Of a DNA stretch of 64,000 nucleotides, positions 11,279 through 42,334 are shown piece after piece. The translations under genes and the position numbers were made by a program. The first letter of the stretch is position 1. Every line of letters begins with the position of its first letter. Below the pieces are notes generated by a model. It was not told the DNA's origin and did no database searches. It saw nothing but the letters and a program-made list of their open reading frames with translations. Origin of the DNA: Gyrodactylus bullatarudis (taxonomy: Eukaryota > Platyhelminthes > Monogenea > Gyrodactylidea > Gyrodactylidae); assembly GCA_012064415.1 (NCBI GenBank), contig SSNU01000235.1:1-64000 (forward strand), written 5' to 3'.

Positions 11279-13746
11279 TTAATCAATTAAATTATTCAAA
11301 AAGTTGAGATACATTTGAACAATTCTCAGTTCAACATCATCCCCTTTTGATGAGGATATGGGTCGTTTCAAGATGAATTTGATGAAATTTCTCTTTCCAG
11401 CAGAAAGTTTGAACTTTGTCAGAGGCTCTTGTTTCCTCAATGAAAGCTTTGCATCAATCGAGGATTTTTGATATTTATCTGGCAAGATGAATGGCTTCTC
11501 ATCGACAGTTAAATTTTTCGACTGCTCTAAAACTTCTTCGTTTATTGAATTGCAAATTTTTTCAATCATCTAAACAGTTTTAATTAATTTGAGAATTTCG
11601 ACATCTTAAAGTATTTTGATGGCCATTGGCCATAGTCATATTCTTGCTTATTCTTATTCTCAGTTTAAGTCAACAAAAATTTTAATTCAAGACTTCAAAA
11701 AAATGCCCTTATACATTTTCAATGAATGTGCATAAAAATTTTACTTCAGAAAACCCTCCTCGAGCTTCTAATGAAATAAAAAAATTATCCTCTTCATATT
11801 AACTAGCAATCCAATCAAGAGGCAAGCAACTACTGTCAACCAGCAAAGGGTCTTCACGTATAGTGGAATGAGAAATCGTCAAGAGATTTTCATGTATAGT
11901 GGAATGCTTTGATGTATGCTTTGGTCTATAATGTAAATTTAGGCACATACCCATGTAAAGTTTTACATTGAGACATACAAATTTTTATGTGATTAATATG
12001 ATGAGGCAACTTATTTACAGTGTAAATGATAATTATAATCACAATAATAATTATTATTGTACGTCTTAATGTAAAACTTTACATGGGTATGTGTCTATTA
12101 TAGACCAAAGTATACATCAAAACATTCCACTATACATGAAAATCTCTTGACGATTTCTCATTCCACTATACGTGAAGACCCTTTGCTGATTGACTGTAAT
12201 TTGTTTTTTTAATTCACATTTTAAATCTAAAAAAATCCCTCATCTTTTGTAAAATTAGAAATCATAAAATTAAATAAAAAATAAACTATAAAGTTCTTTT
12301 CAATTGAAGATAAAAATTATTCTGACATGAGTTGTTATTTTTAGCTACGAATTTAGAATATTGAATTTCAAATCTATAATCGTATCTTGAGAAAAATTTC
12401 CGCTTTTAGAATTTATAGAATTTATTTCTATATATCTAAAATGATATTGATTAATCTTTCAAGACCTAGATAGGCTCATACGTGGGGTAGACTCAAAAAT
12501 ATAAATACTTAAATCTCTTATTTTAATAAACCATTATGTAGAATGGAAATTTACATAGTTTCTCAATAGTCTGATCTGTTAATCTGTAGTCTAATGATAA
12601 AAGAAAAATCACTAACTGGTATAAACTCAGTATTTTTGGCGACTGTTTCTGTTGATTGATTTGACTTCAGGGCAACAGCTCCTGCCTTTTTATTCAGCAC
12701 CTTTGAGAGGGCATCAGCCAAGTCTGTGATGGATTCATCGCTAATATAAACATTCTCCTTTGCTAAAGGATCAGAATCGTGTCTTGCATCCATTGGGATA
12801 TCTCTCATGTATTCATCTTCGTCCATGAAATCTTCCTTGTCGTTAACAAGAGTGAACAGGGGATGATCCCATTTATTTTTATCATTTGGAATCTCATAAC
12901 GATTAAGCATCTCTTCGAGTAGTTCTTCTGAATATCGGTTAATCTAAAATAAGTCATTCAAGTTTTGTTTGTTATAATCGAAGCTCTTCGTGTCCCAAAT
13001 TACTTTTTTGTCATCTGCATTAGATTTTAAAAATAAAATCTATATAATTTTAAAAAAAGTTTATTTTGTGAGCCTATGGACGTCTAAACTACCCAACCAA
13101 TTTTAACCAGTCATAGATTACCCCACGGACCATGTTAGTAACAAAAAATTTTCTAGATTTGGCCTTTATTGAACTACCAACTTATGGGAAATAAATTCTA
13201 AAATTACTAATTCTTAATATACGATTCTTCAACCAAAATTTTTACAGCAGTTTAAATGCAAACATACTTGAAAGTTATAGGCTTTAATCTTATCCTTTTG
13301 GGTTTTTATATATAGAACAGCATAGCACTTTTTCAGGGACTTCGCAAGACAAAAGAGTTCATAACGGAATCCTTTGATATAGTTTAAGCTATCAACAATG
13401 AGTAAATCTTTTGGAGTGCAATCATTCAAAATTCTAAAGGTCTATAAAATAAGCAAAATCATTTTTTATTAAACTACTCATAAGTAGTTTGTTTGTTTTA
13501 ATTAAAACTTACTTCTGATTTGACTTGAGCTCTTAAGTTCTTTTCCTTATTAAGTTCTGCGTAAATTTCCCCACGAACATCTCGTGTACAATCTTTTATG
13601 GGATTTACCTGGGCCATGCATGAAAAATCATCAAGATGAACGATATTTTCAAACAGGTCAGCTTGATTTTTCTTCATCCCCTCAATGAGCATATTAACCA
13701 TTCTAGTTTTTCCACTACATGGAGGTCCAGTGACAATTAAGACTGC
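11279..13746 (-). CDS. KTI12: KTI12, wobble-uridine modification factor
   Basis: There are four exons, all phase 0: 13746-13513, 13441-13268, 12943-12617 and 11569-11279, with stop TAA. The product is about 342 residues if one Met is added; human KTI12 is 354. Exon 1 has the P-loop GPPCSGKT, exon 2 the family signature VDSLNYIKGFRYELFCLAK, exon 3 the NKWDHPLFTL block, and exon 4 the conserved C-terminus KFKLSAGKRNFIKFI. KTI12 is an ATPase that supports the Elongator complex in modifying U34 of tRNAs. The first exon begins directly after a splice acceptor and has no ATG before the P-loop; the in-frame codon before it is TAG. The natural reading is trans-splicing of a leader ending in AUG. The gene follows WDR12 by 88 bp. 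Introns are 71, 324 and 1047 bp, the last holding a MITE. Confidence 0.92.
11831..12198. mobile_element. Tc1/mariner-type MITE inside KTI12 intron 3
   Basis: This is a near-perfect foldback. Left arm 11833-11975 and right arm 12055-12196 are reverse complements with only a few differences, around a loop of about 80 bp. Both outer ends read TAC(A/T)GTCAA inward, consistent with a TA target duplication at 11831-11832 and 12197-12198 as in Tc1/mariner elements. There is no ORF. It sits wholly within the third KTI12 intron. Confidence 0.78.
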
Positions 13747-13834
13747 CTAGTTTAATATAATAATGATTAGTCTTAAGGAATATGAATAGCAAGTGATATA
13801 AAACATGTTTTGATAGAAAAAAATAAGATTTTTA

Positions 13835-15164
13835 TTACAATTGTTCAACAGAGAATATCTTTATGGTAGAATCAGCTGAACCACTGAGAATATAGTGCTT
13901 CTCAGATTTGTTATCTGTAATGGGCTGAGACCAATCGATAGTAGTAACCATTTCATTATGAGCCATGAGCTGATAAAGTGGAGCTTGACTATTCCTAGTG
14001 TCCCATAGCCTAACACTGCCATCAACACAGCCAGAAATAAATTGATTCTCCTTACAAGGTGACCAAGAGACACTTGTTATCCAGGAATTGTGCTGACAAA
14101 ATCCAATTTGACTGAGAGCTTCATCGGAGCGCAAGTCATAAATACGAATTTTATTATCTGAGGAGCCGGTGAGAATTCGACCATCAAAGGCACTAATGTG
14201 AAGAGCGTTCAGAGCATGACTAGCCATAATACACCTGGTTTCTTCACCGGAACCAACACCAAAATCCCACAGTCTCAGTGAATGATCCCAACTGACGGTA
14301 GCAATTTTAGATTTGACATTTTCAGAGGATTGATTGACCCAGTCAATAGCACTGATCATTTCACGATGTCCAGTAAGAGTGACTTCAGGAATTTTTGTCG
14401 GAACTTTATCATCGGAGCTCTTTTTCTTATGATCTAATTCATTAATCTCACTGTCACTCTTGTTTTCAATGGACCAGATTTTGATTGAACAATCTTGTGA
14501 ACCGGAGGCGAGCCAATTATTGTTGGATTTCATGCAAGTGATTGTGTCTTTATGGCCTCTAAGAGCGTATTTGCAGCCTAATTTGTCATTCTTGAAGTCC
14601 CATTCCCACAATCGGATAACCTGATCGAATGATCCACTTGTAAAAGTTGCTAAACAATTTTCCTTGTCAAAGCTAAGCCATTCAACGCATTTAACCTGAG
14701 TTCCCAGAGGAAGGGTGAAAATAGGTTCATCTGCATTAACAGGCCATACTTGGATTGTACCATCATAACAAGAGATAAGAATGTATTTTCCGTGCCGCCT
14801 TACACAACTAATCAAATCATCTAATTCGATGTCATCTTCTAGTTTGGGAGAACGTTGTTTTACAACATAAAATATTTCTAAGCTTTCCTAATCTCTATTA
14901 AAATATATAAAACGTACAGATGATAATTTGTTTTCAAGAATAAATTCATGAATTGATGTCAAAAGGAATTTCTTTTCAATTATGAAATCAAATTCTATTT
15001 GGGATTTATCTTCTAACAGATCTTTCACAAGTTTATCCAGGTCTGTAGAGGTAAATTTGTCTGGAACCGTGATAGGAGCTGAAGGAACGGCATATCTAAT
15101 CAGGTTAAAATATTTATTACTTTTTATCTGTAGTTTTAAGCACGATCTGAATAATGTTGTCCAT
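13835..15164 (-). CDS. WDR12: WDR12/Ytm1, ribosome biogenesis WD40 protein
   Basis: There are three exons: 15164-15121 (ATG at 15164), 15095-14918 and 14887-13835 (stop TAA). Together they make 1275 bp, 424 residues, against 423 in human WDR12. The first two exons encode the N-terminal NLE domain (YAVPSAPITVPD..., IEFDFII), and the third encodes seven WD40 repeats with SWDHSLRLWD and VRLWDTRNSQAPLYQLMAH, the latter close to the human sequence. WDR12 joins PES1 and BOP1 in the PeBoW complex that drives 60S subunit maturation in the nucleolus. The two introns are only 25 nt (15096-15120) and 30 nt (14888-14917), both GT...AG. Exact family length after their removal supports them. The gene lies just upstream of KTI12 and divergent from the SLC25A44 gene. 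Confidence 0.95.
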
Positions 15165-15251
15165 GAGAAATTTAAATATTTTACATTAAAAACAAGCTCT
15201 ATATTTTCTTAAGTTTCGTTATTTTTTAACTGTGCTCACATAATCAAAATT
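15165..15251. promoter_or_regulatory. Divergent 87-bp promoter region WDR12/SLC25A44
   Basis: Only 87 bp separate the WDR12 start codon (minus) from the carrier's start codon (plus), so both promoters and 5' leaders must fit here or overlap the other gene. The sequence is AT-rich without a clear TATA box. If SLC25A44 or WDR12 is trans-spliced, the true transcription start could lie elsewhere. Confidence 0.5.
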
Positions 15252-16549: not shown

Positions 16550-19500
16550 TCAAAATTTCTCTGGAAAAATAGGATCGAGCTTATTTTCATTATTCCTTTT
16601 CATGTTCTCCTGTATGTTATTATTTCTATCTGGAGTTGATGTTACATTCTTTGGTATATGAAATGTCTTTCTTATGGTATCATGAAGTCTACTCATAAAT
16701 CGGTAGACATATCTCTTACCGGGAGCCTTTTCAATTATCTTCTTCTCATAATAATACCTAAGGCCACGAGACATTTTTTCATAGGTCATCTTTGGTCGAT
16801 TCTTTTTCATGCCCCAAAGCCGAGCTATTTCATCGGGATCAACAAGTTTAAATTCTGTCCCATTGCCGGTCCAAGAGATGTAATTAGTTTTTGAAGGATC
16901 ATTCAGCAAGTCGAGCAGAAATTGCCATAATTGAATTGGTCCACTGTTTGTACTTGTTTGGCTTATTTGCTTTTGCATGTTTTCGCAATCTGAAAATTCG
17001 TTGGAAATGAAATTCACCAAAAAAACTTTTATCAAAAAAATTATTCCTTATTTCCTGATTAATTTTATTCTCTTTTATTGGATTTATTTTATCAGCCCCA
17101 GTAAAGACAAGTAAATCAGCTATTCAAGTAGCAAGCGAACCAATCTATTATCTCCTCGTATTCTGGGCAGTTATTTTGGGATTTTTTACAACTTATTCAG
17201 TCAAGTTTAATAAAAATTATCGTTGTAAAATTTCTCATCTAAAAACCAAGTTCTTAGAGATCATTTCATAACCAAAACAATATGTGAAATAGAGAATTCT
17301 TAAAATTTGAATCCTGCACAAAATTTTTTTGAGCCAATTACAGTGCACCAATCGTATTTAAAAGAAAATACATTTCCATGTAGTAAACTCACCGATATCT
17401 AGTTTTTCTTGTGATCCATTCGAATTCTAAAATAAGAGAAATACAAAATAAAACTGACCAATAGCCATTCTCTGAATAAATTTCAACTTACTTCTAAAAT
17501 CTCTGTCGAATCATAGTCTTGCATGGACGAAGAAGAAGAAATAAAATCATTGTTGTATTGGAGGATGACTCCTGAGTCGTCTGAATTATTCTGAGTATAA
17601 CATCTGTCGACGGGAGATATTTGATGAAAGTTGAAACTGTTGGCAACTGACTCGTAAAGGGACCGGGAAGTTTGTTGGAGGTGAAGATATTCTGTCGATT
17701 GGGCATGAGAGTTTTGTTGGCAGGCGGATGTAAAATTCAAGAGGTTTCGTTCAGTAACATTACTATTACCATCACTATTGTTTGGGGCTAATAAGTAGTC
17801 TGTTTCCGTATTATTATGAGGAGTTAATCGTGCTAAACTCATAGTAGGGGTATTATTGTAATCGGATATTGCTCCATTGGGTGGGGAAACATAGGATATG
17901 TAATCTGAAATGAATAAATGATAATTTTCCCAATCCAGTTCCAGGTATGTAAATTGAAATCGCGTCTTGATGTGACAGGAGAAACGTAACACTAATCCTT
18001 AGGCATCACATTTAACCTCTCTATTCTCCAGAAATTAGTCCAAGTTTTTTTTCTTGATAATTAAAACAATAAAACAGTATCCACACAGAACTCTGACAAA
18101 AAGAGAAAAACCTTCTCTCTTAATCCATGTCACTTTTTATTTTTCAGCCAAAGGTGTGAAAATATCCACACACAGACAGAAAAATTCACAATTTTCTTAC
18201 TTACTGCTTTGGAAAAACAGAGAAAAACGCCAAAGAGGAAATAAAAAATATCCGAGTGACCCTTTTTCTTTACAAATAAACATTTTTTCTGTTTACGTTT
18301 ACTGTTACTCTATTTGTTTATGAAATCGACACTTGTAAAATGATTGGGCCTTGTAAAATGTCAAAGAATTTAGACTAAATGAAACGCATTCTTAAATCCC
18401 CAATAAAAATGTATAAGGAAAAGAGGAAAAACTGATCCCTTAAGTTTGGGTAACGAAGAACCAATCGAGTATCCCTCCCAGAATGACCATAAATAATTAT
18501 TAAGAGAGACCTATTCGTTATTGTAATTAAAAAAATTATTGAACACGTGCAATTATATAAAGTATTTTAGTACATCTTGATAGAAAGAAATACATTGAAT
18601 TTTAATGGCTAGCGTTTTCTCTGGACAATATGTGTATTTTGTATCAAAAATAACTTTGCCTATCCCATCATAGATCACAGAGGAAAGATAAGATTTTATC
18701 CGATAACATGTCTTTATTGTAAGCCCCTTTTTTCATGAGTTTCGAGTATCATGCTTGTTCAATTTTACCTTGATATGAATATAAAAGAAATTTGTAGATT
18801 TTATTTTATTGTCATTGTCTACGGTTCGTCAAGTAAAAGATTTTTAATTTTTATTGGACCCATTACTCATAATAATCCCTGAATAAATTAAAATTTTGGT
18901 TCTTCATGATTCCTGACTAATGAATGATGAGAACTGATTTTTTCTCTATTCCCGACCACAAACAGTTTTGATTTTTTAATGAATCAACCTATTAGATTCT
19001 CATTCTGCCATTTCTCGACATTCTATCAGACATGAAGGGTTAGGGCTTTTAAATCTGCTTCGAAGATAAACTTGTACAAAATATTGAATATGAAATATTT
19101 ATATTCCTGTATTATTTCAAAATTTCAGGTTTATTCAGACCACGGCGATAATGATCCCTTATTTAATTCCCAAATGATCAGCTGTTCAACAGCCTTCATC
19201 TGAAAATTATGTGGACAGAATTCAATAAATGTTGACAAGGTTCTCAGATGACCATCAGTTAACTTCATCAGTCTAGAATATATAAATTTAAAATAAAATA
19301 CCATTTGGTGACATTTTTCATCCTGGAGATAAGAATCTTATTTAACAGAGACCATAATTCTTTGCTTATCTTTAAGTAAATTTAGCGTTGATCTGACCAC
19401 TGAATGGAGAAGAAATACCTTTTGTTCCCAACAAAAATATTTTAGCAGATTTCATGAGATATTCCTAGGAGAATTTTTCACCTATACTCAAGTATTCTGG

Positions 19501-25610: not shown

Positions 25611-28391
25611 ATAATTAGCTGCAAAAAATGGGAGAAAAAGATGAGAAACTGCACCCGTATTAAGTAAAGACCCAATAATCTACTGAAATTCATCCAATTT
25701 CCTTCAATTATATTTCGTTATTTCAGCTTTATTATATAGCCTATATTGTGGTCGCATTTTCTTGTTAAAATACAAGAATCTCATCTTTAAATTCATTTGT
25801 TAACTTTTAAATGGTGCCGATGGACATATATGTCAATTTTCCAATATTTTTGAACCTTCATAACTCTATCAGTTTGATAGGTTTCTGGATCAATTAAAGT
25901 TAAAATTGATGTGAACTAGCATTCGTAATATTTTTGGCCAAATAACTTGGTATCTTCATAGCTAAATTTTGATTTTTATAAAAATTGTGAAATAGTCTCG
26001 GCACCGAAAGGGTTTAGACCAAAATATTTATATTTTTCTGATTTCAATTTTCTAACTATTCCTTTAGAATAAATTGCTCTCCAACCAAAATTTTATCATG
26101 TAAAATAATCCTAAAATTGACAATATTTAGAGTGTTTCACATATTAATTCGACCACTATATATAAAAACATCCTTCATTCATTCAATAGCGTTGAAAAAA
26201 CATTTTATTTCTTTTAGTAAATTCAAAATTCTACCCCGACAAAATGAGCTGATCTTCCGAATTATTAGATTAATTAAACTAAATGATCTTATTTCTGTAA
26301 AAACTTTTGTGAATGATTTAGAATAAAATATTAATAGAGAAAAAAATGAAAATATACTTGCGAGTAAACACAGATAATTATAAAATTATTTTGTAAAAAT
26401 CTAAAGAAAACCAAATAATTGGAACCTTCACTTAATGTACGAATTCAAATTTGAAATTAAGTTGAAATTTGAAAAATATCTGATAATTATAATTTTCTAT
26501 CTTTAGTTAACATTTTAATTCAGTTCATTGATGCTAATCTAGATCATGTTGCTAGCATTTACCCTTTGAAGATGAAAATTATTTTAAAAAATACAGTTTG
26601 TTTTCCATTTTTTTGAAACTTTGAGCTGAAAAATTTTATTCATTCGAAAGTGATAAAATAGTCTAAACTTCAGGACCCTCCTATTCCTTTGGGATTAGAA
26701 TTCAATAAGAAAACCGTATTTTCATTAAATTTTCAAAAGATCCTATTTTTTTGAGGGATTTTGAATTATTTAAGTTTCAATGATTTTCAAGAAGTAGTAA
26801 ATTATTAAGAAATCAAAATTTAACTCCCGAACCGCAATGAAATCAATCCTTAAATCAGATTTAGCATAGTCAAATGTCTTGTTTAATTCTTGAAACTTGC
26901 TTTAGATCACGCTAGCACTTTCAAATCAATAACAATTTTCAGCTCAAAATTCAAAATAGGAAATTCGGCGTCGAATCGAAGTTTTATAAATGAAGATATT
27001 TTTCTTGATCCTTGAATAAGAAATGCGAAAAATCTGAGAAGAGATTGAGACTAGGATCCGTCAGAATCAGAACCAAAATAAATCTAGCGTGAATTTCATA
27101 TTAAACTTAAACAAAAGAAAAAAGCTGTATCTGGTTAATTTACTGCAGCCTGCTATAGATAATGAAAAAATTGCTTTCAATCATTAATATATTGTGAAAA
27201 TTTAGGTAAAATTGATAGTAAAAACATTAAATGCAGCTATTTTACTCAAATTAAAAATATTTTGGCGCAAGATTTAAATTTATAAGAACCATTCTGAAAA
27301 AAAGAATTCTGCAGGATCTTAATTGAGACAATACAATTTTTGAATGCACTGTCAATTTGAACTGATCTCAGATTATCCTGATTTATTAATTTTCAAGCAG
27401 TAAAATGTCACCTAATTTTCGTAAAAACATTTTTTGAATTTCTTCTTAAATCGCCCATTTAAACAGGTTTCCAAAAAACTTCAGAAAATTGATGAAAAAA
27501 AAGTTTTTTTTCCTTTACTATATAAATTCCTTCGTTTCTTGAATAGAGTCTTTTGGAACTCTAATAAGTTAAGAGATGATTAACTCTAAGGGTGATGTTT
27601 CTAATTTCACATTCCATTTTTATCTCAGAGATCTAGTCAGAAGGTAAACGAAGCAATTGTTACTCACTAATCAAATTTTAATTTTATAACAAAATAAAAT
27701 GTCACAGAGATAACACAAAAGGTCAAATTGAAAATCTCCCATTGAGCAAAAATGTGCGTTGATATCAAAATTCCAATCGATTACATTAGAATATTTTTGT
27801 GTGTAAAACACAAAATTGCATGTTAGAATTTTATTGAATTCCATCTTTAACTTTGTTTCATCTTTCAAGTTTCTAAATTCTCTCTTTTGATTGCCATATA
27901 TATTGCTGTGTATATTATTACTAATGTATTATTATTATTTAAAGAAACAAAATTTGAAAATAATAAATAAACAGTAGTCGAAAAAGCATTGTATCATAAA
28001 ATCTTTTTACGTTGTTGGGTACCAATATAAAAAGTGTCACATCACTTTGTACTGCCTTCTTGAGTGTATATTTTCAGTAAACATTATAAATTATCTGTAC
28101 TTGATAAGCTTTTCAAAAGTAAATTTTCCTCGATAACGTACAACATTTAAATGTAGTCTATCATTATTATTATCTTTTTTAATAATTTTACAATTGAAAT
28201 GTATATAATATATATGTTGATACTGTGTTAACCTTGTAGGCTAGAATAGAATAAACATGTCATACTGTTTGAAATTCATGTAATATAAATTTCACTCTGA
28301 CCAATCATGATGCTTACTTTGTGAATTTTCTAAGCAGAAAGCCCTCTTTATCAGAGAAGAGAAACACATTTGACTAGAAGCAATTTCTACC
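25611..28391. other. Region upstream of the divergent channel gene
   Basis: About 2.8 kb of AT-rich sequence with only low-complexity ORFs. The promoter and 5' leader of the channel gene at 28392 should lie at its right end. A GTATAATA-like word near 28220 and several TATATAA runs are present, but no single TATA box can be chosen. Confidence 0.4.
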
Positions 28392-29573
28392 ATGGATTGG
28401 ATGAAGAAAAAACTCACTCTTTCAATGATAATAATGATTTCATTGACATGGGCTCCATGTCGGAGCCATCAAATAAGCTCTTATGATGAGATCATATTCA
28501 AGGATTACAATAAATTCCAGCGTCCTCAGTCTCTAACCAATGTCAATGTTACTCTGGAAATTTTAAATATTCATTCGATTCATGAGAGCCTGATGGATTT
28601 TTCCATGAATCTTGTTCTCCGTCTGCATTGGAATGATCCTCGTTTAGATTGGCATAGTAACCCACTTCTCGCAGAGTACGAAGTTATCTCAGCCCTTGAC
28701 CTCAGGAATAAAATATGGATTCCAGATGTTTTTTTCCGGAACAGCGAAAAGGACAACTTGAACTCAATCATGAATATCAACCGGTTATCGCCGAATTTTT
28801 TCATAAAACTTCTCAAGACTGGTGATGTTTCTTTCAGTGAAAAGATGACGATAAACTTTTTAGCCGGTCCAGAGTCAGAATCATTCTTTTATCCCTTCAA
28901 CTTGGTCAAGTATCAGATTAAAATGTGCAGTTTCAGTTACGTTGACGATGAGATCCAATTTCAATGGGAAAACTATTCTGATAACTACAGAGTAACTATT
29001 AATAGCCTATTATTCTATAAGTATGGCTACTTTAGCTATGATTATGTTGATGAAATTGTCCACGATGAAAATGGCGAGCAAACAACCATAAAGTGTCCTC
29101 TATTCACATTTAAATTGAAACGATATCTATTCAGATTCTTTTTACACCTCTATTTCCCATCAATTATCATGTTTATTTTCAACTATCTGACCATTAAATG
29201 GAAACCTGAAGATGATTACAAAGCATTGAATGTCATTCTGCCAGTAATCTATTTTTTGACTCAAACTTACATTTTATCTCAAATTTCCCGGCCATATCTC
29301 ACTATGGAGACAATGTGGTATTTCGCTAATTTATTATTATCCTCCATGTTTATCGGAAGGATTTTCCTTCACTTGAATACATCAGAACTAATTACGACTG
29401 ATGGTTATGAGAAGAATCAAATCTACTGCACTGTCACCCAGTTGTACATCACGGGGACTACTCTCATTGTGAATAACATTCGATCCTTTCATAGGATAAT
29501 TCTATACTCATTTGGACTATTCAATATAATCTACTGGTCAAGCGTGATAATCTACTTGTTGGTCATGTTCTAA
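28392..29573 (+). CDS. Divergent pentameric ligand-gated channel subunit lacking the Cys-loop
   Basis: A single exon encodes 393 residues: signal peptide about 1-27, extracellular ligand-binding domain with WIPDVFFRN (about 109-117), then four membrane helices (M1 about 248-268, M2 279-297, M3 305-325, M4 369-391). The fold and length fit the Cys-loop receptor family. However, the two invariant Cys-loop cysteines, 14 positions apart, are Pro160 and Tyr174. The anion-channel PAR motif before M2 is replaced by DYK (275-277), and M2 contains a Pro (284). The M3-M4 loop is short. It may be a non-channel or accessory subunit, or bind a new ligand; the cation or anion type cannot be told. It lies 3 kb from two ordinary paralogues. 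The frame is intact, so it appears to be under selection. Confidence 0.8.
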   Translation: MDWMKKKLTLSMIIMISLTWAPCRSHQISSYDEIIFKDYNKFQRPQSLTNVNVTLEILNIHSIHESLMDFSMNLVLRLHWNDPRLDWHSNPLLAEYEVISALDLRNKIWIPDVFFRNSEKDNLNSIMNINRLSPNFFIKLLKTGDVSFSEKMTINFLAGPESESFFYPFNLVKYQIKMCSFSYVDDEIQFQWENYSDNYRVTINSLLFYKYGYFSYDYVDEIVHDENGEQTTIKCPLFTFKLKRYLFRFFLHLYFPSIIMFIFNYLTIKWKPEDDYKALNVILPVIYFLTQTYILSQISRPYLTMETMWYFANLLLSSMFIGRIFLHLNTSELITTDGYEKNQIYCTVTQLYITGTTLIVNNIRSFHRIILYSFGLFNIIYWSSVIIYLLVMF

Positions 29574-32669: not shown

Positions 32670-34040
32670 TTAGTTTTTATTATTTGGATCATCGTAATAT
32701 TCAACAAGAACAATATAATATAGCCAATAAAAGCAATTATAAAGGATGTAACAGGAGGGAAAAAGGAATCGACTATAAATATCAACTTCAGATTCCACAA
32801 GTGAGGGGGGATTTGTTTGTTTATTCTTCTTATTATGTTGATCGACAACTTGCTTTGTGATAATACTTTCAATTCCTTCAATATTACCATTTGACGAGAG
32901 ATATCCGACATTCTGATTTGAGTCGAGAATTTGTTGTTGTTGACAAGCGGCACACCATCGGACCAACTCCTGGCGAACAATTTCATTGACATCCTGGTGC
33001 CAACTATCGCAGCGTTTCTTCCTTTGCATTGTCAAGGCAATTGCATATTCAACAAGGACTCCAATAATGAAAATTATACTAAATATAGTCCAGATATCGA
33101 TAGCCTTGATGTAAGAGACTCTGGGAAGGTTGGCAGTTACACCAGTGGCCTGAGTCAGAATACCAAGAAGACTTAGAAGACCCAGAGGCACCCTGGCTGG
33201 AGCAGCATCCACATTAACCCAGAAACTCAACCAGGAAGCGATAATGATGAGAATATTTGGAATATACGTTGTCGCTAAATATGAGCCAAGTTGACGTTTC
33301 AACTTAAACCTTGTTATAAGACAACTGAAATTTCCGGTTGACGTTGAATAGTTTTTCGTGCAATCAATTGTCTCAAATTTTTCCGGTTTATTAAATTCAG
33401 AAATTTGCAAAGATTCAGGAATCTCTATGGCCGTTCCATTCTTCCAGGAAAACTTCAACTCCGCTTCTGTATAGGCATAACTGCCAATATTCATCTCACA
33501 CGTCTGTGTGTCCATGGGAAAGGTTTGCAAATGCATTTGACAAGAAAATCTCATTGTAATCTTTTGACTATACAAAATTGAACCATTATTATAAACTCTG
33601 ATAAGATAATTGGGTAGGGTCATCATGTGTAGGAAACCCTCTTTCCCATTGCGAAAGAAGAGATCTGGTAACCAGAGTCGTTCACGAATCTTTGGCGAAG
33701 CAATTGAGCCAAGAGAACTAAAGTTTGGATATTTATCCCAAGCTAAACGTGGATCCATCCACACTTGTCTCAAATAAATGTCAACATTATAGTCCATGGA
33801 ACGAACATCGATGGAGAAGATGGCGATAACTTTAATATTGACGCTAACATGGGTGGTTGATTCTATATTAGGTCTCTCATGTTTACGATAATTTGAGAAT
33901 ATTGTATTCAATATCTGATCACGAATTTGCTGTTCTTCTTCATAAATTCCTGGATTAGATGAATTCGAACTATTGATTTTCCTCGTACAAATTAGGATCA
34001 ATGCAATTATCACTATTGAAGATAAATTGAATTGTAACAT
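32670..34040 (-). CDS. Glycine/glutamate-receptor-like anion channel subunit
   Basis: An intronless gene of 456 residues: signal peptide about 1-24, ligand-binding domain with Cys-loop C167-C181 and a second Cys pair C227-C240 (typical of glycine and glutamate-gated chloride channels), the PAR anion-selectivity motif at 281-283 before M2, M1-M3 about residues 252-335, and M4 at the C-terminus in the PSCYILYNCFYWLYYIVLV context. The intracellular loop ends in SRFLFPS. These channels open to a transmitter such as glutamate, glycine, histamine or GABA and usually let chloride through; the ligand cannot be told. The paralogue at 37752 has the opposite orientation and shares nearly identical DNA across M2-M3. 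Confidence 0.88.
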   Translation of the reverse strand: MLQFNLSSIVIIALILICTRKINSSNSSNPGIYEEEQQIRDQILNTIFSNYRKHERPNIESTTHVSVNIKVIAIFSIDVRSMDYNVDIYLRQVWMDPRLAWDKYPNFSSLGSIASPKIRERLWLPDLFFRNGKEGFLHMMTLPNYLIRVYNNGSILYSQKITMRFSCQMHLQTFPMDTQTCEMNIGSYAYTEAELKFSWKNGTAIEIPESLQISEFNKPEKFETIDCTKNYSTSTGNFSCLITRFKLKRQLGSYLATTYIPNILIIIASWLSFWVNVDAAPARVPLGLLSLLGILTQATGVTANLPRVSYIKAIDIWTIFSIIFIIGVLVEYAIALTMQRKKRCDSWHQDVNEIVRQELVRWCAACQQQQILDSNQNVGYLSSNGNIEGIESIITKQVVDQHNKKNKQTNPPSLVESEVDIYSRFLFPSCYILYNCFYWLYYIVLVEYYDDPNNKN

Positions 34041-35122
34041 TCTTATTTTGGAATGTAATCTCTAACCTCGGTGAGAATGCAACTTTGATTTCATTACTTC
34101 AAATGGGAAAGTGTATCGAAGAAATTAGTCTTAGTTTTAAATTATCCCTTCACTCTAACCAATAACATTTCATTCAATGTCTATATTTTTGTTACATTAC
34201 TGTACGAAAACAATTCTATCAGTAGGGAAGATGGATAAAGTATAAAAGGGGATAATATACACTCAGTAGCCAATTAGATTATGTCTCTGATGAATCTCTT
34301 CTCACAATTTGCAAGTAAGTAAAATCCTGAATAGTATACCTACCTATCCAATATTTGTCCATGTATTTGTATTTGTATATTATATGTATATTCTATGTAA
34401 GCTTGTATAAGTTAGATTAAAAGCATTTATATGTGTATACTCAGGTAGAATAGTTTACCACAATGCTCTATGAGCATTGCTCATAGGTATGTTGTTTGAG
34501 ATTATAATATTGAATTGATATCAAAGGATCTAATGATATATACCACTCATGATCTCTTTCCCTCAACCAGTCCTAGATATTTTTAGTTCCACAAAAGGGG
34601 AAAAACAAAATATTCTGCAATGATTTTCTCTCTTTGAATTCTTTTTTATTGATGTAGAGTACTTCGTCCTCTTGAGATAGTGATGCAATCCAGGAAGAGA
34701 TATCAAATTCTAGATTTTGATATTTAAATCTCGAAAAATTGCAATTTTCATGAAATATGATACATCTCTGATAAAAATCAGATTTTCTAAAATTTCCAAT
34801 CTTGAATGACATAGGATTGATTAATACTCGGTAGTGAGGCTAGTTTGAAATCAGAATTGGAATCTACCTAAAAATTGGCAATTATTGAGCGTAAAAAGAT
34901 TAGAAATACGTTGGAGCAGAAACTAGAATTAAAACTAATTTAATAAATTTATATTTTGAAATGTTACTTAGAAGTAAAGTGATGTTTTAATATTTAATGT
35001 TCAAATTCAGAAATGCAAATGATATTTACTAAACTACTTCCAAGTATTCACGGGAAGAAGAAATAAAGTATTTAGATTGCTTAATAATGCGAAATAAATA
35101 AAATTAAACAATAAGCCCGATC
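34041..35122. other. 5' flank of the minus-strand channel gene
   Basis: The promoter of the channel gene should lie just above 34040. A TATA-like run TATAAAAGGGG on the plus strand near 34240 does not have the orientation needed. No other gene is visible. Confidence 0.35.
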
Positions 35123-35431: not shown

Positions 35432-36853
35432 CTATTTCTGCCTTTTCGTAAACTGATCAATTTTCTGCTGACCACTGTCTCTACGTCGTTTTCTCTTCAC
35501 TTTTTCACAGCTTTTCTTGTCGGTAATTACAGGTTGGGTCATAATTAGATTATCAACTTCTGTTGACTCCTCGTTAGTTTCACTTTTATCCAACTCTGTG
35601 ACTGTTACTGGGGCTGTACTTGGAACTAGAATTGATTGATTATCGGCTTCAGCCAACTTCTCGTTGTTTTCATTATTGCATCTAGTTTCCTTTTGCGCCG
35701 TAGAGGATAAGGGGGGAGAAGAAAAAGTTGTGGGTTCAAGAATCTTACTTATTTTCTCGATTTGTTTGCGCTTTATGTGAACATCTCGACCCTTGAATCC
35801 CAATTTTCTAGCCAATTCTTTTTGGACGCACAAATCTGGTTTCAACTTGGTGATGAAATGTCCTTCCGCACACCCAAGGTTGGTTTGTCTCACTTTACTT
35901 GATTCACTTGGATTAACTTGATAGAGGATCTTAAAATTAGAAGCATCTGCGCTGTGTCCTGTTGCTTGGATATGATGTTGGACTGCACTGTTGTACTTCG
36001 GCCTTAAGTGTTCTCTCACTCTTTCACCAAGTGTTCTGGTTGTTTGACCAACATATGAAGATCCACACGCACAAACAAATTGATAGATTACTCCTTTTCT
36101 TTTCAGCTTTGGAATTTGGTCTTTGTTTCTACCATTGATGAGCTTGGACGTCTTTGAGATTAGTTTCAGTTTTCTCCCAGGGAATGTTCGTTTGGTGATA
36201 TTGGTTAACTTGTTGTTCACAATAGATCTACTAACATCTCCTTTGAAAGGAAGAACTAGATGTATTGGCTTATCGTCATCTTCTTCTCTGATTTTATCTT
36301 TGGGATGGGAATGTTTTTCAATAAAACACTCCGGATAGCCATCTTGTTTAAGGAGGTCTTTCAGTTTGGTTCTTTCTTCCTTAACGTATTCAGTTGACAC
36401 CAGTCTATCAATGTTGAGGAAGGCATTGCTTACGACACTCTTTTTGGTTTCTTTTGGCGAAAAACTATGAAATGGTAAGAATTGTGTTGGAACGCTCGTC
36501 TTCCTGTATATCTTTGTTATTGCGATTGTAACGTTCCACGTAATTTCAAGATCGAGAAAATTGAGTTTGCCTTCTTCTTCCATCTCATTTGTGAACTTGA
36601 CATTTTGGTGGATTGTGTTCAAGTTTTGACAAATCTCATTACCGTCTTTGTCGCTGTCCATCACTAGAAAAGTGTCATCAAGGTATCTAAAATATAGATG
36701 TGAACTTTCGATCAATTGCTGCATTGGGCCTTGTTCAAGGGATGCCAGAAACATATCTGCAAGGAGTGGGCCAATAGGACTTCCCATTGCTACACCATCG
36801 ATTTGCTTGTAGAACTGTCCGCCAAATTTGAAATCAATATTCATCACGGTCAT
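35432..36853 (-). CDS. Penelope-like element RT and GIY-YIG endonuclease, 5' truncated
   Basis: This 473-codon frame starts inside the reverse transcriptase and remains open upstream to about 36905. Catalytic box YLDD occurs in RYLDDTFLV, with DGVAMGSPIGPLLADMF before it (the PLE form of the AMGSP motif). The GIY-YIG endonuclease domain follows (YQFVCACGSSYVGQTTRTL...REHL, about residues 255-290), with the CxC typical of PLE enzymes, then a basic tail KRKRRRDSGQQKIDQF. Penelope elements copy their RNA by target-primed reverse transcription. The amino-terminal third of the RT is lost, so this copy cannot act by itself. Its reading frame is intact, so it is fairly young. Confidence 0.9.
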   Translation of the reverse strand: MTVMNIDFKFGGQFYKQIDGVAMGSPIGPLLADMFLASLEQGPMQQLIESSHLYFRYLDDTFLVMDSDKDGNEICQNLNTIHQNVKFTNEMEEEGKLNFLDLEITWNVTIAITKIYRKTSVPTQFLPFHSFSPKETKKSVVSNAFLNIDRLVSTEYVKEERTKLKDLLKQDGYPECFIEKHSHPKDKIREEDDDKPIHLVLPFKGDVSRSIVNNKLTNITKRTFPGRKLKLISKTSKLINGRNKDQIPKLKRKGVIYQFVCACGSSYVGQTTRTLGERVREHLRPKYNSAVQHHIQATGHSADASNFKILYQVNPSESSKVRQTNLGCAEGHFITKLKPDLCVQKELARKLGFKGRDVHIKRKQIEKISKILEPTTFSSPPLSSTAQKETRCNNENNEKLAEADNQSILVPSTAPVTVTELDKSETNEESTEVDNLIMTQPVITDKKSCEKVKRKRRRDSGQQKIDQFTKRQK

Positions 36854-37193
36854 AAATATTAGTTCTGCATAATTAGTAAGAAACTTAAGCTCAACTTGTA
36901 AATTAGGGGAGAGGGTGACGCATTAATTTTTCATTAAAATTTCAAAGTTTATTTTCAATAGTTTCCATACTTAATGAACGAATTTGATAGGGTTTAGTGG
37001 TACTGATCGAATCAGGAGAAAATTCTCTACAAGTTGAGACCAAAAACTAGAAAAGGGAAAAAATTTGCCCAAAATATTAAAATTTAAATATATTTTTCCT
37101 ACTTCTTAGTAGATTTCAAATACTAACTCTTATTTTTAGCTGGAAAATCGGGGTGTGCACATTCTCTCACACCAAAACTGGTGCACAACTGTA

Positions 37194-37751
37194 CCTTTAA
37201 CTGGGTACAAGTACGTTTAAAACTGCTTTAGGGCATTTTAGAATGAAGATCACAAATCTGACTTTGCATTGAATGTTGTTTAATTTATTGAGCTTGGATC
37301 CAAAATAGTGATCTCAGTTATTTTGATAGATATGACATAGAAAAGACATGCTCAAATCTTCATCTAATTAAGTGATATGTCATTGACATATCATCTCAAG
37401 TCAATAAATATAGAACTTTAAAATGAACTCACATTTGATACTAATAAAATATTCCATCAGTTAATATGGCAAGTTTAATTACTAAATCAAAAGCATATTC
37501 TTGCCGATTGAGTTTGTAAAATATCCTATAAAATACACTGATTGGATATTCTATCATAATTTACTGTGCTTTTTTTCTCAATCTCTTTTCATTGGCCAAT
37601 TAGAGAATCGGAATAAATTCCCATATAATTGGTCAATAAAAATGAATATTTTGAATAGGCATTAATTTAAGATGAAACATTTCGTTAAGGGTAAACTCGA
37701 CCGAGAAAGAAACCAAGAATGAGACATCAGGAAAAATAAAACAAGTGGAAT
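37194..37751. other. 5' flank of the plus-strand channel gene
   Basis: Contains the expected promoter and leader of the channel gene at 37752. No clear TATA box or other structure. Confidence 0.4.
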
Positions 37752-39089
37752 ATGACCCGTTATTTTTATTATCTAATATTTTTAATACCCTTGATAAACA
37801 TCAGGAGTGAATTTCAATCAACAGATATCAATGAAAATGCAGGTTCGTTAAATTTGAGAGACAAAATTCTATCGAAAATCTTCAAAAAGTACAAGAAATA
37901 TGAAAGGCCTAATTCGAGGACAGCAACACACGTTGATGTTAACATGAAAGTATTGGCCATATTCTCAATTGACGTACGAACCATGGATTATTTTGTAGAC
38001 ATTTATTTAAGACAAAACTGGACTGATCCACGGTTAGCATGGAACAATGATTCCGAGTTGGCTACCTACGAGTCCATTGCATCGCCAAAAATAAGAGATA
38101 ACCTATGGTTACCAGACCTCTTCTTTCGCAATGGGAAAGAGGGTTTCCTACACATGATGACACTGCCAAATTATCTTATCAGAGTTTATAATGACGGCTC
38201 AATTTTATATAGTCAAAAGATTACAATGAGATTTTCTTGTCAAATGCAATTGCATACGTTTCCAATGGACACACAGACGTGTGAGATGAATATTGGCAGT
38301 TATGCCTATACATATGAAGAATTAAAATTTTCCTGGAAGAGTGATGCGGCTATTGAAATACAGAATAACCTTCAAATTTCTGAATTCAACACACCGGAAC
38401 GATTCGATACCAAGGATTGTAGTAGCACGTACTCTACGTCAACCGGCAATTTTAGTTGTTTAATTGCCGAGTTTAAACTAAAGCGTCAGTTAGGATCATA
38501 TCTAGCAACAACGTATATTCCGAACATTCTAATTGTTATCGCTTCCTGGTTGAGTTTCTGGGTTAATGTGGATGCTGCTCCAGCCAGGGTGCCCCTGGGT
38601 CTTCTAAGTCTTCTTGGTATTCTGACTCAGGCTACTGGTGTAACTGCCAACCTTCCCAGAGTCTCTTACATCAAGGCTATCGATATCTGGACTATATTTA
38701 ACATTATGTTTATTATCGGAGTTCTCGTTGAGTATGCAATAGCTCTAACTTTACTTCGAAATAAACGTCAGCGTTCCTGGAAAGAAGATATGAATGATAT
38801 TGTTCGTAAGGAATTGATCCAGTGGTGTGCAGCCTGTCATGAAGATCATAGAATGCGACAGGCAGAAACCCTAGGATTATCTGACAACATAAAGAGCCTC
38901 GAAGCTATGATTATGGATAATGTTTTAGATGAAAAGAATCGTGCACAAGCCCAAAGGATTAAACCGCCAACATCAACAGTTTCCCCTGTTGATATGTATA
39001 GTAGATATTTATTTCCATCTTGTTACATACTCTATAACACCTTTTATTGGGGATATTATCTAGTACTGGTGGAATACTTTGATAATTAG
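37752..39089 (+). CDS. Glycine/glutamate-receptor-like anion channel subunit, paralogue
   Basis: An intronless gene of 445 residues with signal peptide about 1-19, Cys-loop C163-C177, second Cys pair C223-C236, and PAR at 277-279 introducing M2. The M2-M3 linker has the TANLPRVSYIKAIDIW order of chloride channels, and M4 ends in NTFYWGYYLVLVEYF. The ligand-binding loops differ from the paralogue at 32670 while the pore is almost the same, so the two may form mixed pentamers. It is placed head to head with that gene about 3.7 kb away, with the Penelope insertion between them. Confidence 0.88.
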   Translation: MTRYFYYLIFLIPLINIRSEFQSTDINENAGSLNLRDKILSKIFKKYKKYERPNSRTATHVDVNMKVLAIFSIDVRTMDYFVDIYLRQNWTDPRLAWNNDSELATYESIASPKIRDNLWLPDLFFRNGKEGFLHMMTLPNYLIRVYNDGSILYSQKITMRFSCQMQLHTFPMDTQTCEMNIGSYAYTYEELKFSWKSDAAIEIQNNLQISEFNTPERFDTKDCSSTYSTSTGNFSCLIAEFKLKRQLGSYLATTYIPNILIVIASWLSFWVNVDAAPARVPLGLLSLLGILTQATGVTANLPRVSYIKAIDIWTIFNIMFIIGVLVEYAIALTLLRNKRQRSWKEDMNDIVRKELIQWCAACHEDHRMRQAETLGLSDNIKSLEAMIMDNVLDEKNRAQAQRIKPPTSTVSPVDMYSRYLFPSCYILYNTFYWGYYLVLVEYFDN

Positions 39090-40987: not shown

Positions 40988-42334
40988 TTATTGTGTTGCC
41001 TGGTAAAAATCGGTAATTTGTTGGTTCGTCTCTACTTCTTCTCTCCTCCTCTTCCTAGCGGGGGGTTGGGATGCTGGGGACTTTAGTTCTCTTGGTTTGG
41101 GGAGAGCCAGGTTAATCGGCTTGACAAAGGTTTTCTGGATGCAAAGGTTTGGTTTTTGTTGGTTTATAAGGTATGCTTCAGCTGCTTTAAGTGCGTGGAC
41201 ATTGTTTCCGGTTGGTCTATAGATAATTTCAAAGTTTTCGTTGGAAACGTCTGCCTTGCATGTCCTCAGATGCTCTCTCACTGCAGTTTGGCCAGTGTAG
41301 AGGTGCTCTTCGATTCTATCCTCTAGACGTCTTTTGGTTTGGCCAATATACTCGGATTTACAAGCGCAAGTAAACTTGTAGACTACATGGCTTATCTTTG
41401 TTTTATCAATCGTGTCTTTTGCCTTGTTGGTAAACATTTTAGAAGTTTGGAAGGTCATTCGTAAGGTTCCTTCAGGGTAGGTTTGGGAAAAGACTTCATT
41501 TATCTTTCTTTGAATTAGTGTTGATGTCTTATCCCCTTTGAAAGGTAGGTTCATGTAGACAGTTCCACCTTCATTCTCTTTGGGCTTTTTCCTAGGGGTG
41601 TACATCTGAGAGAGCCTATCGTTGATCAGTTCGATTGGGTAGTCGTTGTTGAGGAATATACAGATCAGTTTTTCCATCTCGTCTTCCCAGGTTGATTCTG
41701 AGACTATCCTTCGGGTTCTTTTCGCGAGAGCTGTCACAAGTCCTCGTTTTACTTTCATGGGTACGAACGAGTTGAAATTCAGCATCCTGCCCGTGAACGT
41801 GTTTTTCTGGTGTATACGCCTTGTGATTGAGCTGTCTGTGTTCTTTGTTAGCTTAACTTCGAGAAAAGGCAAACTGTCATTTTCTGTCTCCATGGTAAAC
41901 TTGATTTTTCCGTGGACATGATTAAATTCTGTTAGTAAACTATCAACATTAAGATTCTTATTAGCGATTATAAAGGTATCATCCATATAACGGTAATAAT
42001 TATCAAACTTATCGATAGTTGGCTTTAATGACGTCATCTCGAGTTTTGCCAGGAATATGTCAGCTAGCAGGGGTCCTAAAGGGGTGCCCATTGCAACGCC
42101 GTCTTTCTGCACATATAAGTCCTCGTTGAAGCTGAACACCACGTTCTTGCAGCATAAGTTGAGCAGTTTTCTCACCCAGTTGGCTGCCAGTTTGAACTCG
42201 GATTGATTCTGTTTCACATAGTCGTGAATGAAGTCCACTGTTTCTTTCAACGGTACATTGGTGAATAAGGACTCTACATCGAAGGATAACATTGTTTTCT
42301 CTGTCGTATCTAGGTCCTTGACTTTTTCTACAAC
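40988..42334 (-). CDS. Penelope-like element 2, RT and GIY-YIG endonuclease
   Basis: A frame of 434 codons from ATG 42292, open to 42334 and 5' truncated. Reverse-transcriptase motif A lies in SFDVESLFTNVPL (residues 3-15), then GVAMGTPLGPLLADIF, and YMDD in RYMDDTFII (about 107). Endonuclease residues follow (VVYKFTCACKSEYIGQTKRRLEDRIEEH), then a basic tail with KRRREEV. It differs clearly from the element at 35.4-36.9 kb, so two lineages are present. A hammerhead lies on its 3' side (40705-40747), with a decayed one on its 5' side near 42398-42433. Confidence 0.9.
   Translation of the reverse strand, partial: VVEKVKDLDTTEKTMLSFDVESLFTNVPLKETVDFIHDYVKQNQSEFKLAANWVRKLLNLCCKNVVFSFNEDLYVQKDGVAMGTPLGPLLADIFLAKLEMTSLKPTIDKFDNYYRYMDDTFIIANKNLNVDSLLTEFNHVHGKIKFTMETENDSLPFLEVKLTKNTDSSITRRIHQKNTFTGRMLNFNSFVPMKVKRGLVTALAKRTRRIVSESTWEDEMEKLICIFLNNDYPIELINDRLSQMYTPRKKPKENEGGTVYMNLPFKGDKTSTLIQRKINEVFSQTYPEGTLRMTFQTSKMFTNKAKDTIDKTKISHVVYKFTCACKSEYIGQTKRRLEDRIEEHLYTGQTAVREHLRTCKADVSNENFEIIYRPTGNNVHALKAAEAYLINQQKPNLCIQKTFVKPINLALPKPRELKSPASQPPARKRRREEVETNQQITDFYQATQ

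Follow-up and report, generated by a model that had tools for sequence, protein, structure and literature searches.

How can a gene be translated when its first exon opens directly at a splice acceptor and the codon in frame ahead of it is a stop? The question is raised by KTI12 of the monogenean Gyrodactylus bullatarudis, which lies behind WDR12 on the minus strand of a 64,000-nucleotide (nt) stretch of DNA (positions 1 to 64,000 of contig SSNU01000235.1, assembly GCA_012064415.1; hereafter the window). As proposed in a preliminary description of the window, KTI12 seems to lack a start codon that it could use and very probably acquires its AUG from a trans-spliced leader. WDR12 and KTI12 probably form an operon. 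Four properties that can be read directly from the DNA support the leader as source of the start codon: the anatomy of the junction, whose gap lacks a usable AUG; an open gene with full coverage of the Pfam family PF08433; the exact fit of its frame to a leader-terminal AUG; and, elsewhere in the genome, genes resembling spliced leader (SL) RNA genes that carry ATG immediately before a GT donor (ATG|GT).

WDR12 ends with a TAA at 13837-13835 of the minus strand and is separated from KTI12 by an intercistronic gap of 88 nt (13747..13834). The gap closes with the acceptor sequence ...ATTAAACTAG (...AAACTAG) ending at 13747; its AG (13747..13748), the putative trans-splice site, lies within a TAG (13749-13747) that is the codon in frame before GCA. 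The next base, 13746, is the first of this GCA, and the exon reads from there GCA GTC TTA ATT GTC ACT GGA CCT CCA TGT AGT GGA AAA ACT (AVLIVTGPPCSGKT), so that the P-loop GPPCSGKT (13705..13728) follows closely. The acceptor directly ahead of the P-loop exon and the in-frame TAG, both pointed out initially, are thus plainly present, and GCA sits directly after AG in phase 0, so that a leader ending in AUG would run straight into the reading frame that begins there. The gap contains a single ATG (13804..13806) and a single GT (at 13804), the two overlapping. A splice from AT|GT to 13747 restores an ATG, but the reading is then M-Q-S-stop, and the argument that an ordinary small first exon does not fit into the 88 nt holds. 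No usable cis ATG was found in the gap or in exon 1 up to the P-loop. The single ATG of the gap shares its frame with the P-loop, a point that the preliminary description had missed; 18 sense codons lie between it and the single TAG (MFYITCYSYSLRLIIIILN*AVLIV). No weight was given to this open run, because on the minus strand of the window 354 of the 1154 ATGs lead into 19 or more open codons.

The KTI12 gene (11279..13746, minus strand) was modelled with four coding exons at 13746-13513, 13441-13268, 12943-12617 and 11569-11279, the last including the stop, and with introns of 71, 324 and 1047 nt. Splice sites were picked by frame, GT/AG borders and homology, and in this exon model, derived from the sequence, the joined exons form 341 open codons and a stop. 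The product with a leader AUG matches PF08433 with an E-value of 9.3e-44 over residues 1-338 and model positions 1-271 of 271, and has its P-loop at the N-terminus, as in a full-length member of the family; it also matches PDB chain 6qp0 (annotated as 'Putative chromatin binding protein') at 1.3e-13. When residues 112-342 alone were used for a homologue search, nothing was retrieved at E 0.01. The spacing between the initiator methionine and the P-loop was compared in the 120 homologues listed of 410 found, none of which was recognised by name as a flatworm KTI12 orthologue, many being nameless. Counted from the methionine, 113 of the 120 have the P-loop Gly at position 8 (4 have it at index 26 to 37), and the G. 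bullatarudis product does so too if AUG joins GCA. An equal spacing had been noted for human KTI12 in the preliminary description.

These results bear on two other readings of the locus. Translation could start at the in-frame ATG at 13806, from which a single stop separates the P-loop, if the TAG at 13749-13747 were read through or edited; the protein would then carry an N-terminal extension of 20 residues. This is hardly credible: in the 113 homologues only 7 residues precede the P-loop Gly and there is no extension, open runs as long as that behind this ATG are found after many ATGs of the strand, and the acceptor-like AAACTAG would be left unexplained. That this copy of KTI12 is a pseudogene, or that the assembly is in error here, is very improbable, as the gene has 341 open codons in four exons with GT/AG borders and covers the full Pfam model, and as two changes would be needed to turn CTAG into CATG.

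The gap has further elements that suggest a junction between two cistrons. An AATAAA (13831..13836), a putative poly(A) signal, overlaps the WDR12 stop, and a run of seven T (13817..13823) lies between it and the acceptor. This run is reminiscent of the U-rich intercistronic (Ur) element of nematodes. From the end of AATAAA to KTI12 exon 1 the distance is 84 nt. The layout suggests an operon resolved by trans-splicing, with a distance near the roughly 100 bp published for flatworms: the median intercistronic distance in Schistosoma mansoni operons is 99 bp (PMC12582326), and operon gaps in Macrostomum lignano peak at about 100 bp (PMC8629364). In the mechanism that we propose, WDR12 and KTI12 would be transcribed as one pre-mRNA from the WDR12 promoter, WDR12 would be cleaved and polyadenylated just behind its own stop, and a leader with a terminal AUG would be donated by an SL RNA, through trans-splicing, at the acceptor that closes the gap (13747). 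The leader AUG would then abut GCA in phase 0 and ribosomes would initiate at it, yielding M-A-V-L-I-V-T-G-P-P-C-S-G-K-T.

If this is so, the genome should encode leaders that end in AUG. The assembly (77.3 Mb, 471 contigs) was searched with three patterns. Pattern ATGGTN{25,55}TTCTTTGG, modelled on the Sm motif that is interrupted in other flatworms, gave 148 matches compared to 80 in the control; no SL-like candidate was seen, fold context being computed for those 14 of 30 excised loci that shared one orientation (the other 16 were reversed). Pattern CGGTN{15,30}ATGGTN{25,55}TTTGG gave 54 matches compared to 86 in the reversed control and, being unenriched, proves nothing by itself; from its matches a locus on contig C219 was chosen by eye for its hairpins. 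The third pattern, CGGTN{15,32}ATGGTRAG, gave 42 matches compared to 78 and none was SL-like in the 40 regions read by eye; it is blind to the loci found later, since their donors are GTTAG or GTACG. The chosen locus (C219:1027297-1027367, minus strand) carries a CGGT motif, a hairpin over the ATG|GT donor, a second hairpin, a single-stranded Sm-like site AUUUUUUGG and a 3' hairpin. Its fold z-score is -3.76, with none of 200 shuffles as stable, and in the comparison of 30 loci cut out of the 54 matches it had the lowest z-score (-4.04).

BLAST with this locus returned a second copy, C133:8078-8172 (minus strand), of 80% identity. The leader end TATATG|GTTAG is conserved between them, as are the Sm-like site and the 3' hairpin. 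In hairpin 2, both sides have changed in 7 of 7 pairs between the two copies yet pairing is kept, with one G-U, provided that the 3' arm is moved over by one alignment column; without this shift, 25 of the 31 base pairs that make up the C219 fold are also standard in C133. The likeness of the leaders to published flatworm leaders was reached by 57 of 2000 shuffles for C219 and by 4 of 2000 for C133. Pattern ATGGTTAGN{20,45}ATTTTTTGG matches exactly these two loci in the assembly (one match in the control), and a 26-nt core made of the Sm site and the 3' hairpin, without ATGGT, retrieved nine loci with up to 3 mismatches and none in the reversed control. These are C219, C133, C406, C455 (two), C28 and C230 (three); the two C455 copies are identical over the 205 nt compared. 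A separate route to the leaders, through the promoters of small nuclear RNA (snRNA) genes, was abandoned: U2 (3 loci) and U5 (2 loci) were found and no common upstream element was seen by eye. The 5' ends of the U2 matches (C408, C241 and C125; L109-L111) differ strongly, and some of them may thus be retrocopies.

The preliminary description had advised a search of the same genome for an SL RNA gene ending in ATG with a GT donor, and SL-RNA-like genes that fit were found: ATG|GT is present in 8 of the 9 loci, with the ATG 33, 37 or 39 nt upstream of the core and leader ends of TATATG, TACATG or TTCATG. This speaks against leaders without a terminal AUG, which the preliminary description had named as one ground for refutation. 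It is present in 4 of the 5 sequence types that were found without any use of ATGGT, where we roughly estimate the chance of such a match at about 1% per locus. Over the 30 nt before the ATG, the six types with ATG|GT agree at 6 to 15 positions (ungapped), the closest leader pair, C219 and C133, being alike at 22 of 30. The Sm-like site of the 8 loci is AUUUUUUG plus one further base (G, A or U), and its U6 run is unbroken; the interrupted form UVUUUGG of cestodes and trematodes is absent from them, and for this reason the loci are called SL-RNA-like here. Their donors, GTTAGT and GTACGT, are also used in cis in our KTI12 and WDR12 models and thus appear to be of an ordinary type here. C219 and C133 show two hairpins ahead of the Sm-like site, the first of which holds the donor, and a third behind it. 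Over the nine loci, fold z-scores are -4.6 for C219, -3.6 for C133, -4.0 for C28, -1.7 to -2.2 for C406, C455 and C230, and -1.1 for a copy on C230 (90045-90070) that looks degenerate.

Members of the family occur in clusters of mixed orientation, three at C230:85052-90070 (about 2.5 kb apart, over about 5 kb) and two at C455:118321-121802 (3.4 kb apart). Three of the six types (L194, L195, L197) share a T-rich element, approximately TATTTT..AG..G.TTG, some 93-104 nt upstream of the leader end. In an upstream 12-mer test the observed value was matched by none of 200 mononucleotide shuffles; a second, wider test scored 76.7, whereas the highest of 60 shuffles reached 70.5, but it placed the element inconsistently in three of the six loci. 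The element may belong to a promoter, which is suggestive only, and the argument does not rely on it.

Could the nine loci encode another snRNA of the Sm class rather than SL RNA? An Sm-like site and a 3' hairpin are found in snRNAs too, the site is not interrupted as it is in other flatworm SL RNAs, and only C219 and C133 fold fully as SL RNAs by minimum energy. On the other hand, the Rfam search at E 1 brought up nothing beyond two weak microRNA matches far below the cut-offs, ATG|GT is kept at 33-39 nt in 8 of 9 loci while the flanks diverge, and the C219 and C133 leaders resemble published ones, as the shuffles indicate. We consider another snRNA unlikely and retain SL-RNA-like genes as the candidate source of the KTI12 start codon.

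Several observations weigh against a leader-supplied AUG, the first of them concerning the leader genes. The CGGT-type patterns that lay behind the first locus were enriched over reversed controls in neither case. The ninth locus (C230, 90045-90070) has no ATGGT at the corresponding place and its Sm site is altered. Minimum-energy folds of C406, C455, C28 and C230 are SL-like only in part, and a head-to-tail SL array was not found among the nine loci.

Further points against it come from other genes. The preliminary description had suggested a look at other genes for frames that open at an acceptor; no clear second AUG-less gene was found in 78 conserved-family loci (40 Ras, 38 LSM and ubiquitin-conjugating). 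Among the Ras domain starts, of which 40 of 43 were fetched, 33 have an in-frame ATG in an open frame, four (L169, L170, L184, L186) show by eye a short cis exon with ATG, and three (L172, L173, L176) were assigned to neither class. For LSM all 17 matches were covered by their 5' regions, and for ubiquitin-conjugating genes 21 of the 23; none is clearly AUG-less, many of the matched exons being internal. A scan for gene pairs by codon bias over about 271 kb (the window and 67 loci) gave no AUG-less gene either; its three matches were, by eye, ordinary exons or a transposon open reading frame (ORF). Strict dependence on a leader is therefore not common among the genes examined. Lastly, the SmB gene (C129:729850-730700, L119) reads ATG|gtgag...27 nt...ttttag|codon 2, with a cis intron right after its ATG.

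SmB keeps alive the view that KTI12 takes its ATG in cis, from a distant first exon that closes with ATG, lies within WDR12 or farther upstream, and is spliced to 13747: an intron at this very position does exist in the genome. On the sense strand, eight ATG|GT sites occur between 13747 and 20000, one of which, at 17772, has the donor GTAATA that is used in WDR12 intron 1, and acceptors shared by cis- and trans-splicing are frequent in flatworms (PMC12582326). An upstream cis exon with ATG had been named as what would overturn the proposal. None fits the 88-nt gap, and the eight sites lie farther upstream. The three within WDR12 (14763, 14184 and 13951) have poor donors, GTACAA, GTCGAA and GTTACT, and the other five (17772-19355) are beyond WDR12, at least 4 kb away. 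In SmB and the Rab-like genes with short first exons, the ATG is only tens of nt from the next exon, and at acceptors that resolve operons cis-splicing is very rare in flatworms (PMC12582326). A cis exon so distant, across WDR12, is unlikely, and we give this explanation a low probability.

With a trans-spliced leader as the preferred source, SmB also suggests how dependence on it could have arisen: a tiny first exon holding only the ATG, like that of SmB, may have been lost, and genes with an intron right after the ATG are possible forerunners of leader-dependent ones. More tentatively, and with the odds rather against it, the leader AUG may have become fixed coding information in this lineage, the leader bodies drifting while AUG|GU is maintained in 8 of 9 loci, since genes like KTI12 have lost their own start and could not be translated otherwise. 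KTI12 is a clean candidate for a gene that encodes a conserved single-domain protein yet has no start codon in the genome, with SL-RNA-like genes in the same assembly. Should leader dependence prove widespread, gene predictions in flatworms of this kind would miss or truncate the genes concerned, and it would help to explain why AUG is retained in flatworm leaders while much else in them drifts.

The upstream cistron is conventional in its start. WDR12 (13835..15164, minus strand) has its own ATG at 15164, and its exons, 15164-15121, 15095-14918 and 14887-13835, join into a translation without internal stop. The long exon is most similar to WDR12 of Schistosoma japonicum (44%); next in order come S. 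spindalis (43%), S. mattheei (38%), a scallop and Trichobilharzia; schistosomatids thus make up four of the five best matches. Its two introns are very short, 30 nt (14888-14917) and 25 nt (15096-15120), and short introns close to the start codon are also seen in ubiquitin-conjugating, Rab-like and Sm genes of the same genome. On the other side of the WDR12 ATG, a spacer of 87 nt (15165-15251) leads to the ATG of a plus-strand ORF that by eye resembles a mitochondrial carrier; a two-way promoter is possible there. The window has a GC content of about 31% on average, and its remainder includes, by eye, three ORFs resembling subunits of Cys-loop ligand-gated channels (28374-29573, 32670-34061 and 37740-39089) and two long ORFs resembling Penelope-type retroelements (35432-36922 and 40988-42334).

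The arrangement can be compared with that of known trans-splicing systems. Operons of the nematode SL2 type combine genes on the same strand with AATAAA, a U-rich run and a trans-splice acceptor within about 100 nt, and WDR12-KTI12 is arranged likewise. Nematode leaders are not known to supply an AUG, unlike the leader proposed here. For flatworms, Cheng et al. in 2006 reportedly described that the leader AUG can serve as initiator methionine.

In a gyrodactylid genome paper, the term 'spliced leader' does not occur in the main text (PMC12677651). No monogenean SL RNA was met in excerpts from the Gyrodactylus and Monogenea trans-splicing literature, which does not establish that none is in print, and a literature search on KTI12 and trans-splicing led to a single paper, by its title on yeast. 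Phytochelatin synthase was set aside as a precedent, as the paper in question reports no evidence of its trans-splicing (PMC3101182). A precedent is provided by SmSirt7 of S. mansoni, whose ATG is supplied by the leader (PMC3772001), so that the initiator use of AUG-ending flatworm leaders, on which the preliminary description relied, is known and KTI12 would be a further case. In SmSirt7 the 3'-terminal AUG of the leader joins the recipient in frame as the start, and the same is predicted from sequence for KTI12. Unlike SmSirt7, KTI12 is the downstream gene of a pair, WDR12-KTI12, and shows no usable start in the gap or in the exon.

The newer part lies in what appears to be a leader family that keeps AUG|GU and an unbroken Sm-like site while most of the leader has diverged. 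In one review, four platyhelminth leader types have ATG at the end and contain CGGT or CGGY (PMC3795323). A 2025 survey of 24 cestode and trematode species describes SL RNAs with AUG|GU, hairpins and an Sm-like site, UVUUUGG in these groups (PMC12582326). The loci described here share with them the AUG|GU leader end, a predicted length of about 100 nt, several copies per genome and, in C219 and C133, the hairpin over the donor and hairpins before and after the Sm-like site; unlike them, the leader bodies are mostly very different within one genome and no head-to-tail array was seen. The M. lignano leader, which starts with CGGT and ends with GCATG before a GT donor, and its operon gaps, which peak near 100 bp, offer further likeness; M. 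lignano has a single 35-nt leader with the donor GTAAG (PMC8629364), whereas the G. bullatarudis loci fall into six sequence types with the donors GTTAGT or GTACGT.

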